Assembly (NCBI GenBank): GCA_947311625.1
Contig: CAMZKW010000001.1
Coordinates: forward strand, 79,776-117,912
DNA: 38,137 nucleotides
DNA from: Candidatus Campbelliibacteriota bacterium
GTDB lineage: Bacteria; Patescibacteriota; Minisyncoccia; Phycocordibacterales; GCA-2747955
Direction: 5' to 3'
Shown here: positions 18,048 through 24,729 of the stretch, in pieces
Position numbering within the stretch: position 1 is the stretch's first letter
Layout of the letters: each line of letters starts with the position of its first letter
Translations under genes and position numbers: made by a program
The notes under the pieces: generated by a model
Databases searched by the model: none
The model's input: only the letters and a program-made list of their open reading frames with translations
Told to the model about the DNA's origin: nothing

Positions 18048-21000
18048 ATGAATAATAAAAAAGAAATAAAAAAATCCCCAACATCAATGGATGAAGAAAG
18101 GATTTTAGAAAAATGAAATAAAGATGATACTTTTAAAAAGAGTGTTGAACAAAGAGAGGGTTCTAAGGAATTTATTTTTTATGATGGACCTCCTTTTGCT
18201 ACTGGTTTACCACACTATGGACATTTACTTCCTGGAACGATTAAAGATGTAATTCCGAGGTATAAAACAATGAGAGGTTTTAAAGTGGAAAGAAATTGAG
18301 GTTGAGATACTCATGGATTGCCAATAGAAAATTTAATTGAAAAAGAATTAAAATTAAATTCAAAAGCAGAAATTGAAGATTATGGAATTGATAAATTTAA
18401 TGAATCTGCAAAGGATTCAGTTCTAAGATATGATAAGGAGTGAAAAGAAATAATTCCTCGTTCCGGTAGATGAGTGGATATGGAAAAGCCATACAAGACT
18501 ATGGATTCAGATTATACCGAATCTCTTTGGTGGGCTTTTTCAGAATTAAATAAAAAAGGACTGGTAAAAAGAGATTTTAAACCGATGCATATCTGTCCGA
18601 GATGTGAGACAACTTTATCAAATAATGAGGTAACCGATGGTTATAAAGATTTAAAAGATTTGACTCTAACTGCAAAATTTGAGTTAGCAGAAGAACCAAA
18701 AACTTTTATTTTAGCTTGAACAACAACTCCTTGAACTTTACCAGGAAATGTTGCCTTGGCAGTGGGTCCAGAAATTGAATACGTAAAAGTTAAAGTGGGG
18801 GAAGAAAAATATATTTTAGGAAAGGAAAAAATGGAAGAAGTTCTATCTCAAGAAGGAATAGAAAAATATGAAATTGTTGAAGAATTTAAGGGGCAAGATT
18901 TAGTGGGAAAGGTTTACAAACCAGTTTTTGATTACTACCAAAATTCTAACTTAGAAAATATTGAAAATGCTTGAAAGATATATATAGCAGATTTTGTAAC
19001 AACGGAAACGGGAACGGGTATTGTTCATATTGCTCCAGCCTTTGGTTCCGATGATTTAGAATTAGGAAGAAAAAATAATTTACCATTTATCCAACATGTT
19101 TCAATGAATGGAGAATTTAAACTAGAGGTTAAAGATTTTTCTGGTATTAAGGTGAGAAAATTAGAAAATCATTCTGAATCTGATATAGAAATTATTAAAA
19201 ATTTGGCACACAGAGGGCTATTATTTCACAAAGAAAAAATTGAACATTCATATCCAACTTGTTGGAGATGTAAAACCCCACTTTTAAACTACGCAACTGA
19301 TTCATGATTTATTGAATCACCTAAAATAAAAGAAAAATTGATTTCTGAAAATAAAAAAATAAATTGAATTCCAAAACATATTGGTGAAAAAAGATTTCAT
19401 AACTGACTAGATAGCACTAGGGATTGAGCAGTTTCAAGGTCAAGATATTGAGGTGCGCCATTACCAGTTTGAAAAAATACTCAAAAAGATGAATTTGAAT
19501 TTATTTCTTCTTTAGAGGAATTAAAAGGTAAAACTCATTCTAAAAATAATTTTATTTTAATGAGACATGGTGAGTCAGAATCAAATGTAAAAGATATGGT
19601 ATCTACAACCAGAGGATTGAATGGTGACAGACTTACTCTTAATGGAAAAAAACAAGTTGAGGAAAATTTAAAAGAAATAGATTCTATTCTTAAAAAAGAA
19701 GCTAAAAATAATAATGGAAAAAATATTGATATTATCATATCTTCACCATTTACTAGAACTTTGGAAACAGCTGAAATTTTAAAAGAAAAATTAGATTTCA
19801 AAGGTGATATTATTACCGATGAAAGAATAAGAGAAAGATCTTTTGTTGATTTTGACGGAAAAACCTATGAATCATATTGAAAAGAGAATTCTGAAAATGG
19901 AGAAGTTGGTTTAGATTATTTTGATGTTAAAACAAAAAATGGAGAATCAAAAAGAGAAGTGAGAAATAGAGTTATGAATTTTTTCTATGAAATTGATAAA
20001 AAATATCAAGGAAAAAATATTCTTGTAATTACTCATTTTGACCCATTATTTACAGCATTTTCAGCTTTGAATGGAATGAATGAAAAACAAGTTCATAATT
20101 ACAGAAAGGAATGAGGTGAATCAAGAAATGCCTTTCCATTGTATTTTGATTTTTCACCTATACCACATGATAAAGATTATATTTTAAATTATCATAGACC
20201 TTATATTGATAAAATATCTTGAGTAAATAAAAATGGAGATAAGTTCGAACATGTTAAAGAAGTCTTTGATTGTTGATTTGAATCTGGATCAATGCCATTT
20301 GCATCAAAGCATTATCCTTTTGATAAAACAAAATTTAATCCTGAAAAATCTATTGGTTATCCTGCAGATTTTATCGCAGAAGGACAAGATCAAACAAGGG
20401 GTTGATTCAATACAATGCTTGTTTTATCAGTTGCTCTATTTGGAAAAGCTTCATATAAAAATGTTGTTGTCAATGGTATTGTTTTAGCCGAAGATGGAAA
20501 AAAAATGTCAAAATCTTTAAATAATTATCCACCTATAAATGAATTTATGGATAAATATGGTGCCGATGCTTTAAGATTAGTGTTGATGTCATCTCCTGCT
20601 GTTAGAGCAGAATCATTAAATCTTTCAGAAAAATCTTTGAGTGAGGTCGTTAGTAAAGTGATAATGAAAGTTAAAAATATTATCTCTTTTTATGAATTAC
20701 AAAAAGATTATTTTGATGAAAATATAAATCCAAAAAAATCAAAAAATATTTTGGATAAATGAATTTTAATAAAAATTTCTAATCTACATAAAAGTGTTAC
20801 TGATAATTTAGACAATTATGAAATAGATAAAGCATCTAGAGGTTTTACTGATTTTATGGAAGAATTTTCCTCTTGATACATTAGAAGATCAAGAGATAGA
20901 TTTAAAACTGATAATGATGAGGATAAAAAGAATGCTGCCGCAACAATTAATTTTGTTTTAAGGGAATTGGCAAAAATAATGGCACCTTTTACACCATTTC

Positions 21001-21617
21001 TTTCTGAAATAGTTTGAGAAAAAATCTCAAGAGAGGGTGATAAAAAATCAGTTCATTTAGAAAATTGAAGCGAAGAAGAAGAAGGTTTGATTTCAAAAGC
21101 TTTTAATTCTTTGAACCCTCTGGAAGAAGATATGAATGTTTTAAGAGATATGGTTACTCTTGGTCTTGAATCAAGAGTTTCCACTGGGTTTAAAGTAAGA
21201 CAACCTTTAAGAAAAATTGTTTTTATTGGTGATAGATTTAAAAATATTGATAAATCTGAAGAGTTAAAAGAAATTTTACTTGATGAATTAAATATAAAAG
21301 AAATTGAAATACAAAAAGGTGAAAAAGAGAAAGCTGAACTAGACACAAAACTAGATGATGAATTAATAAAAGAAGGAAAATATCGTGAATTTTTAAGAAT
21401 AGTTCAATCAATGAGAAAAAAAGCAGGGATGTCCGTTGAAGAAATAGCTGAATTAAAAATTGATATTGAGGAAACCAAAAGAGATTTTATTGATGATAAT
21501 CTGGAGAATTTAAATAAAGTAGCTGGAATAAAAAATATTAACTATTCTTCCATAGAGGGGGAAGATGATTTACAAAAAGTAAATGATATTGAATTCAAGA
21601 TAATTTTAATTAAATAA
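18048..21617 (+). CDS. ileS: Isoleucyl-tRNA synthetase with inserted histidine-phosphatase domain
   Basis: A 1189-residue class I synthetase that charges tRNA-Ile. I count 23 TGA codons read as Trp against three TGG, many at invariant positions: [70 protein letters not shown]. The HIGH motif is HYGH (residues 56-59) after DGPPFATG; the KMSKS motif is at 819-823. The CP1 editing region (TTTPWTLPGN, STRDWA) and an anticodon-binding region ([22 protein letters not shown]) are present; the long acidic C-terminal half resembles the archaeal/eukaryotic-like IleRS type 2. Between PLPVWK and HRPYIDKI, normally about 40 residues apart, lies an extra domain of about 190 residues (see next entry). Monocistronic, closed by a GC-rich terminator. 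Confidence 0.96.
19530..20190 (+). other. Histidine-phosphatase (phosphoglycerate-mutase-like) domain inside IleRS
   Basis: About residues 495-714 of the synthetase. The catalytic motifs are complete: [11 protein letters not shown] (Arg506, His507, Glu509), [11 protein letters not shown] (Arg570), [14 protein letters not shown] (Glu596, the likely proton donor) and [10 protein letters not shown] (His663). This is a branch-1 histidine phosphatase-type signature. TGA-Trp codons occur inside it (SYWKEN, KEWGES), so it is integrated with the host gene's code. Substrate unknown; a role in proofreading or in nucleotide turnover is speculation. Confidence 0.88.
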
Positions 21618-23043: not shown

Positions 23044-23808
23044 ATGACAGATATTTCAATAGACTTAGTAAAAGAACTAAGAGCAGTAACTGGAGTTTCA
23101 ATTATGCAATGTAAAAAAGCATTGGTGGAAGCAGAAGGTGACATGGAAAAAGCAAAAATTGCTTTAACAAAAAAATCAGGTGAAGTGGCTGCTAAAAAAG
23201 GGGATAGAGAATTAGGAGCAGGAGCTATAGTGGTTAAAAAAGATAATGGAAAAACAATTTTACTTGAATTTTCATGTGAGACAGACTTTGTCGCTAAAAA
23301 TGATGACTTCAAAGAGGTTGCAGAAAAAGTTGCTTTAGCTGTTTTGAATGGAGAAGATACTAAAACTTTAATTTCAGAAGCTACTTTAAAATTTGGTGAA
23401 AGATCAGAAATTACTCGTTCAGAAATTTTTGAATCTGAAAACTTAGGTGTTTATGTTCATTCAGGTGGGGTAGGAACAATTGTAGAATTTTCATCTTCAG
23501 TGGATGAAGATTTTGGAAAAGATATTGCAATGCATATAACTGCACAAAATCCAAAATATTTATCTAAGGATGATATCTCTCCAGAAGAAAAAGAAAAAAC
23601 TACAGATACTTTAAGAGAGGAGGTTGCAGATAAACCAGCAGAAATGCAAGATAAAATTTTAGAAGGAAAAATAAATGCTTTCTTTAAAGAAAGAGTTCTT
23701 TTTACTCAAGGTTTTATTAAAGACCCATCAAAAACAATTGAAACTTTACTTTCAGAAAAAGGAGTTGAGATTGTAAAATTTGTGAGGTTTGCAGTTGGTG
23801 AAATATAA
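23044..23808 (+). CDS. tsf: Translation elongation factor EF-Ts
   Basis: A 254-residue guanine-nucleotide exchange factor for EF-Tu. The N-terminal UBA-like domain is ISIDLVKELRAVTGVSIMQC, ending KKALVEAEGDMEKA, and the conserved EFSCETDFVAKNDDF motif that contacts EF-Tu is intact. The dimerisation/core region includes VYVHSGGVGTIVEFS, HITAQNPKYLS and FFKERVLFTQGFIKDPSKTI. No Trp. Co-transcribed with rpsB across a 20-nt spacer that lacks a Shine-Dalgarno. Confidence 0.97.
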   Translation: MTDISIDLVKELRAVTGVSIMQCKKALVEAEGDMEKAKIALTKKSGEVAAKKGDRELGAGAIVVKKDNGKTILLEFSCETDFVAKNDDFKEVAEKVALAVLNGEDTKTLISEATLKFGERSEITRSEIFESENLGVYVHSGGVGTIVEFSSSVDEDFGKDIAMHITAQNPKYLSKDDISPEEKEKTTDTLREEVADKPAEMQDKILEGKINAFFKERVLFTQGFIKDPSKTIETLLSEKGVEIVKFVRFAVGEI

Positions 23809-23856
23809 AAAAATGTGGAAAAACTATATATTTAACTTGAATTTTTTAAAAGTTTT

Positions 23857-23864
23857 GATATAAT
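23857..23864 (+). promoter_or_regulatory. -10 promoter of the tRNA-Thr transcript
   Basis: TG..TATAAT (TATAAT at 23859-23864) places the start near 23871, about 125 nt before the tRNA. Confidence 0.6.
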
Positions 23865-23865
23865 A

Positions 23866-23900
23866 GTTTCACTTCACCAGAATAGCTTAAGTTTGTAGAA
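23866..23900 (+). repeat. Partial copy of the tRNA-Thr 5' end and its flank
   Basis: This stretch matches 23987-24020 closely over about 35 nt: GTTTCACTTC, then CCAGAATAGCT, then AGTT-GTAGA with few differences. It covers the tRNA acceptor 5' arm and D arm plus 10 nt of upstream sequence. Confidence 0.75.
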
Positions 23901-23975
23901 GGAGAAAATAATTTATTTTATTTTCGAGTCACCTTAAGGCGTCTGCTGTATTTTAAGTTAGAGGAACGACTGGTT
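23871..23975 (+). ncRNA. Candidate structured RNA in the tRNA-Thr leader
   Basis: ACCAG (23876-23880) can pair with CTGGT (23970-23974), TAGCTTAA (23883-23890) with TTAAGTTA (23953-23960), and GAAAATAA (23904-23911) with TTATTTTC (23918-23925). The fold would be a closed multibranch structure ending just before the tRNA. It includes TTCGAGTC, a T-loop-like string. It may be a degenerate tRNA or a leader element; the function is unknown. The remaining part of the gap from 23809 to 23856 shows no gene. Confidence 0.35.
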
Positions 23976-23996
23976 TAAAAATTTTCGTTTCACTTC

Positions 23997-24069
23997 GCCA
24001 GAATAGCTCAGTTGGTAGAGCAACCGCCTTGTAAGCGGTAGGTCTCCAGTTCAAATCTGGATTCTGGCT
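23997..24069 (+). tRNA. tRNA-Thr (anticodon UGU)
   Basis: A full cloverleaf: acceptor GCCAGAA/TTCTGGC, T8-A9, D stem GCTC/GAGC, anticodon stem ACCGC/GCGGT with loop CTTGTAA (anticodon TGT at 24030-24032), T stem TCCAG/CTGGA with loop TTCAAAT, discriminator T. CCA is not encoded. Confidence 0.97.
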
Positions 24070-24076
24070 CAAAAAT

Positions 24077-24107
24077 AAAAAAACTCTTTAATTAGAGTTT
24101 TTTTTAT
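24077..24107 (+). terminator. Terminator after tRNA-Thr
   Basis: AAAAACTCT/AGAGTTTTT stem (24079-24087 with 24094-24102) followed by Ts. Confidence 0.85.
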
Positions 24108-24120
24108 TTTATTTAAAAAA

Positions 24121-24129
24121 TGTTATTAT
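24121..24129 (+). promoter_or_regulatory. Extended -10 promoter of the HAD hydrolase gene
   Basis: TGT-TATTAT with six bases to the ATG at 24136. Confidence 0.55.
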
Positions 24130-24135
24130 AAAATT

Positions 24136-24729
24136 ATGAAAAATATTAAAAATATAATTTTTGATTTTGATGGTGTTTTGATAAAAAATACTAAAATTCT
24201 TTTAGAAACTCACAGAAAAACTTTAGGTCCTTTTTCCGAAGAAAATTTTAGAAAATTATTTAATGGTAATACGGCGGAAGAACTAGAAAAACATAAAATA
24301 AAAAATATGAATTTATTTTGAGATGAATGAAAGAAAATTTTAGAAAATTGAATTATAGACCAGGAAACTTTAAATTTTTTAAAAAATAATAAAAAAAATA
24401 ATTTTATAATTTCTTCAAATAAAGAATATATTTTAAATAAAATTTTAGAAAATTCAAATATAGAAAATTTATTTTTAGATGTTCTTGGTTCAGAAACTCA
24501 TAAATTAAAAACTAAAAAGTTTATTTTATTAAAAGAAAAATTTAATTTAAATTTTAAAGAGACAGTATTTATAACTGATTCTTTGGGTGATTTAAAGGAA
24601 GCATCTGAATTTCCTGAATTAAAAACCATAGGAGTCACCTGAGGTGTTCATTGTAGAAAAAATTTAAAAAAAGGGATTCCTGATTTTATTTCTGATTCTT
24701 GAGATGAAATTAAAAAAATATTAAATTAA
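24136..24729 (+). CDS. HAD-superfamily hydrolase
   Basis: A 197-residue phosphatase-like protein with five TGA-Trp codons (LFWDEWKK, ENWIID, VTWGVH, DSWDEI). Motif I is FDFDGVLIKN (Asp10 and Asp12 nucleophile/acid), motif II is FIISSNKEY, the motif III Lys region is HKLKTKKFILLKEK, and motif IV is VFITDSLGDLKEA. GVTWGVH near the end matches the phosphoglycolate-phosphatase-like 'GVTWG' turn and again places Trp at a TGA. The cap domain is small and helical. Substrate unknown. Single-gene unit between tRNA-Thr and atpG. Confidence 0.85.

Follow-up and report, generated by a model that had tools for sequence, protein, structure and literature searches.

A partial 5′ copy of tRNA-Thr in the leader of the intact gene, and related self-copies beside tRNA genes in other genomes of the same order

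tRNA genes are common integration sites, and the islands that use them are generally understood to have 3′-end direct repeats around the island as attachment sites. Template switching makes reverse-complement repeats and new RNA hairpins, according to PMC8794818. The locus described here resembles an island junction in that a partial tRNA copy stands beside an intact tRNA, but it differs in that the copy is one of the 5′ end, 121 nt away, and in that many of the other copies beside tRNA genes are inverted.

The window, the 38,137-nucleotide stretch of DNA analysed here, belongs to a Candidatus Campbelliibacteriota genome (G000; 22 contigs, 624,325 bases) and encodes an intact tRNA-Thr(TGT) downstream of a gene which we take to be tsf (EF-Ts), the protein product of which had relatives in 58 of the 61 genomes searched. 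A repeat search revealed two 36-nt copies with 81% identity and a start-to-start distance of 121 nt. The original prediction was of a repeat of about 35 nt, covering flank, acceptor and D arm, 121 nt upstream; this was borne out over 34 nt, as the alignment of the copy with the tRNA-Thr flank and approximately the first 24 nt of the gene scored 50, compared to a mean of 17.8 and a maximum of 26 in 500 shuffles (0/500 as high). A promoter-like site directly precedes the copy, and the start of the copy therefore lies close to the expected transcription start, as had also been proposed; the consensus scan found four promoter-like sites in the whole stretch, against 0.9 expected. The unit between the first copied tRNA nucleotide and the real tRNA, which we have designated W, is derived from tRNA-Thr and located in its predicted leader (Table 1). 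The terminator scan of the stretch reported no site at the terminator-like inverted repeat that follows the gene.

Table 1. Features of the tRNA-Thr locus, in positions of the window
Feature	Position	Strand	Basis
Promoter-like TTGAAT-16-TATAAT, TG before second hexamer	23837–23864	+	Consensus scan, predicted
Copy of tRNA-Thr 5′ flank, acceptor 5′ strand and D-arm strand	23866–23899	+	Repeat search, alignment
Unit W, 121 nt, from copied tRNA nucleotide 1 to last base before real tRNA	23876–23996	+	
A+T hairpin GAAAATAA-TTTATT-TTATTTTC	23904–23925	+	Folds
ACCTTAAGGCG, anticodon-stem 5′ strand remnant, then its reverse complement; weak in W	23931–23941	+	
Right arm, partly complementary to copied 5′ part (UUUUAAGUUA, CUGGU)	23952–23974	+	Predicted folds, stability within shuffles
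Intact tRNA-Thr(TGT)	23997–24070	+	tRNA gene calls; tRNA covariance model covers 23997–24069
A-run/T-run inverted repeat 3′ of tRNA-Thr, terminator-like	24071–24110	+	Inverted repeat search

Beyond the copied strand the resemblance to the tRNA faded. The sense match of the inner part of W to tRNA-Thr was equalled by 232 of 500 shuffles, and its antisense match to the 5′ part of the tRNA by 29 of 500 (1 of 100 in the survey scan), with 3 of 25 other tRNAs scoring as high. No Rfam 15 family was found over W at the gathering score, and the tRNA model (RF00005) had no match there at the gathering score or at E values up to 5; the suggestion that W is a degenerate whole tRNA left by tandem duplication was rejected on this result. 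The copy had further been described as embedded in a fold closed by ACCAG/CTGGT, with a T-loop-like sequence inside it. The ACCAG and CTGGT letters were present (23876–23880 and 23970–23974 respectively), but the predicted fold was no more stable than shuffles, the MFE of 23866–23990 having a z score of 0.44 (131 of 200 shuffles as stable) and that of 23876–23996 a z score of −0.48 (64 of 200). Similarly, the T-loop-like letters TTCGAGTC were found between 23923 and 23930, where a short A+T hairpin has its 3′ foot, but a T loop is not conserved, as the same place in the homologous units of a relative reads CTCGGAGTC and TCTGGAGTG; a T loop inside W was accordingly discarded.

These homologous units, A and B, were encoded by a congeneric genome, G002, where they stand in tandem ahead of the same tRNA-Thr, with lengths and spacing of 116 nt and 115 nt. 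The gene upstream of them is presumably dnaN, a name given from reading, and not tsf. The G002 contig is also available as JAGLGQ010000069.1 (Candidatus Paceibacterota bacterium isolate RS_10_46), and the G002 record (L125) was the sole locus taken from 31 contig loci. W, A and B had in common the copied 5′ part, a hairpin, GAGT and CCTT..AAGGC, and diverged from the tRNA sequence at about the same point. All three read GTTTGT where tRNA-Thr has GTTGGT; this variant, common to the units yet absent from the tRNA, argues against independent copying. Following the D arm, the layout consisted of a hairpin and then the anticodon-stem strand in reverse complement, which was distinct in A and B (GCCTT..AAGGCGGTTGC; antisense match 0/500 shuffles as high for each) and weak in W. 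Alignment of the inner parts gave a score of 69 for A with B and of 40 for W with B (both 0/500 shuffles), and for W with A a score within chance (135 of 500 as high). Within the fold, ACCAG/CTGGT became GCCAG/CTGAC in unit B and had no partner in unit A. Hairpin 1 paired in all three units although its arms differed in sequence (CAGATT/AATCTG in A and CGAGTT/AACTCG in B). In G001 and G004 the tRNA-Thr followed closely behind tsf with no upstream unit, and G003 had no tRNA-Thr(TGT) at the cut-off used.

Comparison of these genomes also revealed a difference in codon usage. The IleRS frame of the window (18048–21617) contained 23 TGA and 3 TGG codons, many of the TGA codons standing at sites which we take to be conserved Trp positions. 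At the NRWIGG site of rpsB, the codon was TGA in G000 and G003 and TGG in G001. Additionally, G000 encoded a tRNA with a TCA anticodon (L190, position 844), called SeC by ARAGORN. From the sequence, TGA reads as Trp over the whole window, and members of a single Paceibacterota genus may not all use the same genetic code.

The recurrence of such copies was surveyed by masking all tRNAs and searching within 500 nt of each tRNA gene for the host tRNA's own sequence, with a cut-off score of at least 30. The genes were a sample (27 of 32 model matches in G000, 27 of 36 in G001 and 12–30 per genome elsewhere). In the family of the window (f1), 60 of 174 tRNA genes had a self-copy on either flank: 3/27 in G000, 19/27 in G001, 11/21 in G002, 4/12 in G004, 5/21 in G005, 9/25 in G006 and 5/23 in G007, together with 4/18 in G003, a figure which may be inflated because loci L083, L084, L237 and L238 were entered via matches to earlier queries (L081 was reached from the finding). 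The window tRNA-Thr itself scored 28. Five other families of the order had 16 of 102 (G010 0/20, G043 4/13, G055 7/23, G016 5/16 and G011 0/30). The tRNA of a different amino acid used as query gave 29 of 2760, and the same scan of Escherichia coli K-12 gave 0 of 24 tRNA genes. Self-copies are thus common, although unevenly distributed, and each is specific to the tRNA that hosts it.

Upstream copies in register with the host, starting at tRNA nucleotides 1–6, were present at 30 of 275 tRNA genes in 13 genomes (10 of 2750 with swapped queries); W belongs here, being an in-register sense copy of the 5′ part of its host. The distances clustered near 100 nt, with 12 of the 30 at 91–109 nt, and others were approximately double that, some of these being tandem units. 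Most upstream units (19/30) also contained an antisense match to the 5′ 45 nt of the same tRNA at no more than 5 of 100 shuffles; the remaining 11 were above that level. The clearest case was tRNA-Glu of G000 (L198), with a sense arm, a hairpin middle and an antisense arm (MFE z score −10.9). A different arrangement was seen at L220 (G001 contig C37), where an intact tRNA-Ile(TAT) (671–744) stands between the 5′ half (upstream) and the 3′ half (downstream) of a second tRNA-Ile; these flanks are complementary, and the arrangement resembles one tRNA nested within the other's anticodon loop.

Copies of the 3′ end were found downstream of many tRNA genes, and many of these were inverted. Behind many tRNAs, a terminator-like hairpin was followed by the tRNA 3′ end in reverse complement, as far as the T loop, then by a core and finally by a sense copy of the 3′ end. 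Cores of the tRNA-Ile and tRNA-Phe units of G007 were 95% identical, whereas each arm resembled its host tRNA more closely than the other tRNA (left arms, 0.88 against 0.65 and 0.83 against 0.58; right arms, 1.00 against 0.62 in both units). The downstream cores had a GGAG-hairpin-GAG in common. Structure-blind alignment of 18 cores recovered only the outer stem, and a set of seven (from G055, G016, G043 and G006) was used instead; it supported a structure made up of outer stem, 3-bp helix, GGA/GA internal loop and hairpin, with 98.7% of cells paired and a covariation of 0.580, compared to 0.243 in shuffles (0/500 as high). This structure had been named from folds of sequences of the same sort, and the comparison is biased in its favour. 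As the outer stem is tRNA-derived its pairing is trivial, and the independent evidence is that of the inner six pairs, of which four had changed on both sides among the seven sequences.

With a model of this two-hairpin core (R1), 85 sources from G000–G004 and G007 gave 5 matches at E < 0.01, and 100 sources from G005, G006 and the five other families gave 19, of which 7 were the sequences used for training. None of the matches at E < 0.01 was in the window. The best score of R1 within 23500–24500 was at noise level (5.8 bits, E 0.79), and membership of W in the core family was rejected on this score. At the gathering score Rfam found only tRNA on the downstream cores, other matches being weak and far below it. 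A hammerhead-like junction in the core was dropped as it had no Rfam support and the junction lengths did not fit. The cores had no match in phages and plasmids, and a viral origin was also set aside: a strict pattern had no viral matches, and a loose pattern matched 13 viral stretches, none with a tRNA gene, which we judged to be chance hits in coding sequence. The motif TTTTTGAGCTTGCGAAAAATGCCTATT, common to units of different tRNAs, was present (with up to three mismatches) at four places in G000 and four in G001; six of the eight were within approximately 200 nt of a tRNA gene, and the remaining two adjoined the 3′ part of a tRNA that was itself missing. It was absent from G002–G004 and from the window.

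Other arrangements were observed in G001. A second tRNA-Thr (L086, contig C50, 5836–5909) was split in its D loop by a hairpin repeat of approximately 105 nt that recurs beside other tRNAs, and three 3′-end copies followed approximately 60 nt apart downstream of this gene. Downstream units at L228, L231, L222 and L224 contained inverted repeats with ends like CCNAGCACCACTTTTG inside the loops of the unit hairpins, that is, a second palindromic element nested within the first.

The reading that we prefer, to which we give about an even chance, is that W is an inherited fold-back duplication of the 5′ part of tRNA-Thr, decaying or passively kept, that predates the split of G000 and G002. The 5′ flank, acceptor strand and D arm would have been duplicated in an event that turned back near the anticodon strand: a nascent strand would fold back at a hairpin of the tRNA gene, copy the reverse complement of its own just-made sequence, and return to the template ahead of the gene start, leaving a sense part, a hairpin, an antisense part and the whole gene. 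W would now be transcribed as a leader before the intact tRNA, be removed at the RNase P site and presumably lack a function. The wider class would comprise units made from the tRNA's own 5′ part (upstream, often at about 100 nt) or 3′ part (downstream), with one intact gene left. The tandem homologues of G002, which precede the same tRNA behind a different upstream gene, support a fold-back origin; the 11 upstream units above the antisense threshold and the weak antisense part of W weaken it. Downstream units need more than strand switching, since their core is common to different tRNAs and their arms are not.

An account covering both kinds of unit, which we hold tentatively and below even confidence, is that the tRNA genes of this order of Patescibacteria host a class of short structured elements that rebuild their arms from the host tRNA, from the 5′ part upstream and from the 3′ part, around a conserved core, downstream, with one intact gene left and W being a worn member. 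W may be a coreless or worn relative of an arm-re-templating element; no element that rebuilds its ends on the host gene in this manner is known to us.

It is rather unlikely that W is a functional leader, in which a decoy acceptor/D-arm strand and hairpins steer the folding of tRNA-Thr, its RNase P processing or its level. The unit is kept behind a promoter-like site and in both G000 and G002, the EF-Ts proteins of which are 65% identical, a persistence more suggestive of selection than of decay; hairpin 1 can pair in all three units despite its differing sequence, unit B was more stable than 199 of 200 shuffles, and the spacing of upstream units is alike across several genera of the family. 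Against this, the stability of W equals that of shuffles, G001 and G004, two other species of the genus, carry the tRNA without a unit, copy number varies between one (G000) and two (G002), W, A and B are three sequences and too few for covariation, and G000 and G002 were the only 2 of 397 genomes in the order to contain the unit-start pattern.

We consider it unlikely that a short mobile hairpin element, of a kind that enters tRNA-gene loops, left W as its footprint, the cored downstream units being its better-preserved relatives. The near-identical G007 cores between arms matching their own tRNA, the compensatory changes in the downstream cores, the TTTTTGAGCTTGCGAAAAATGCCTATT places beside tRNA genes or 3′ parts in G000 and G001 and the repeat inside the D loop of the second G001 tRNA-Thr would all suit such an element, but W matches neither the core model nor the motif, and no mobilising enzyme tracks the units. 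Five of 10 family genomes had reverse transcriptase matches, one of which looked like a contaminant, and Y1 transposase genes were present in 5 of 5 genomes of the window's genus but in none of G005–G007, all three of which have units; both enzymes were rejected as the mobiliser on this distribution. One reverse transcriptase match was a 518-aa protein with a YRDD motif in G000 (L321, contig C3, 1345–2901, minus strand). In G005, a Ty3-like retrotransposon polyprotein was encoded on a contig of the bacterial genome bin (L319, C22), which is probably eukaryotic Ty3-type contamination.

Remnants of attachment sites from repeated island integration at the tRNA would account for 3′-end copies downstream of many tRNA genes but are very improbable, as W copies the 5′ end with its flank and not the 3′ end and many downstream copies are inverted. 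Equally improbable is that the whole tRNA gene was simply duplicated in tandem and one copy then decayed, which would agree with a direct repeat that takes in the flank but not with the lack of a tRNA-like 3′ half in W or with the departure of W, A and B from the tRNA at one place.

tRNA genes are among the most constrained in a genome, yet up to 19 of 27 sampled in one genome (G001) had self-copies. The lineage has either a mutation process that acts strongly and locally on tRNA hairpins or an element that is adapted to these, and either reading bears on the origin of tRNA pseudogenes, split tRNAs and hairpin RNAs. It also advises caution, as a tRNA-like leader in a genome of this sort does not necessarily have a regulatory role.

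No description of such units was found in the open-licence literature on tRNA-gene palindromes, partial tRNA copies, REP/RAYT, template switching and tRNA repeats of Patescibacteria. REPINs and other palindromic REP/RAYT elements are likewise short non-coding hairpins in several copies, and the genus of the window has Y1 transposase genes; the present units differ in that their arms are copied from the host tRNA and three unit-bearing genomes lack Y1. Archaeal split and permuted tRNA genes, as described in PMC3218864, similarly have pieces of tRNA genes apart from the whole gene order, whereas here an intact gene lies between the pieces and there is no evidence of joining in trans. Closest to fold-back duplication are the template-switch mutations of PMC8794818, which are also short reverse-complement copies that lie beside the original and form stems. 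Those were described at microRNA and rRNA loci, whereas here tRNA genes are affected repeatedly, with copies that combine the flank with part of the gene.
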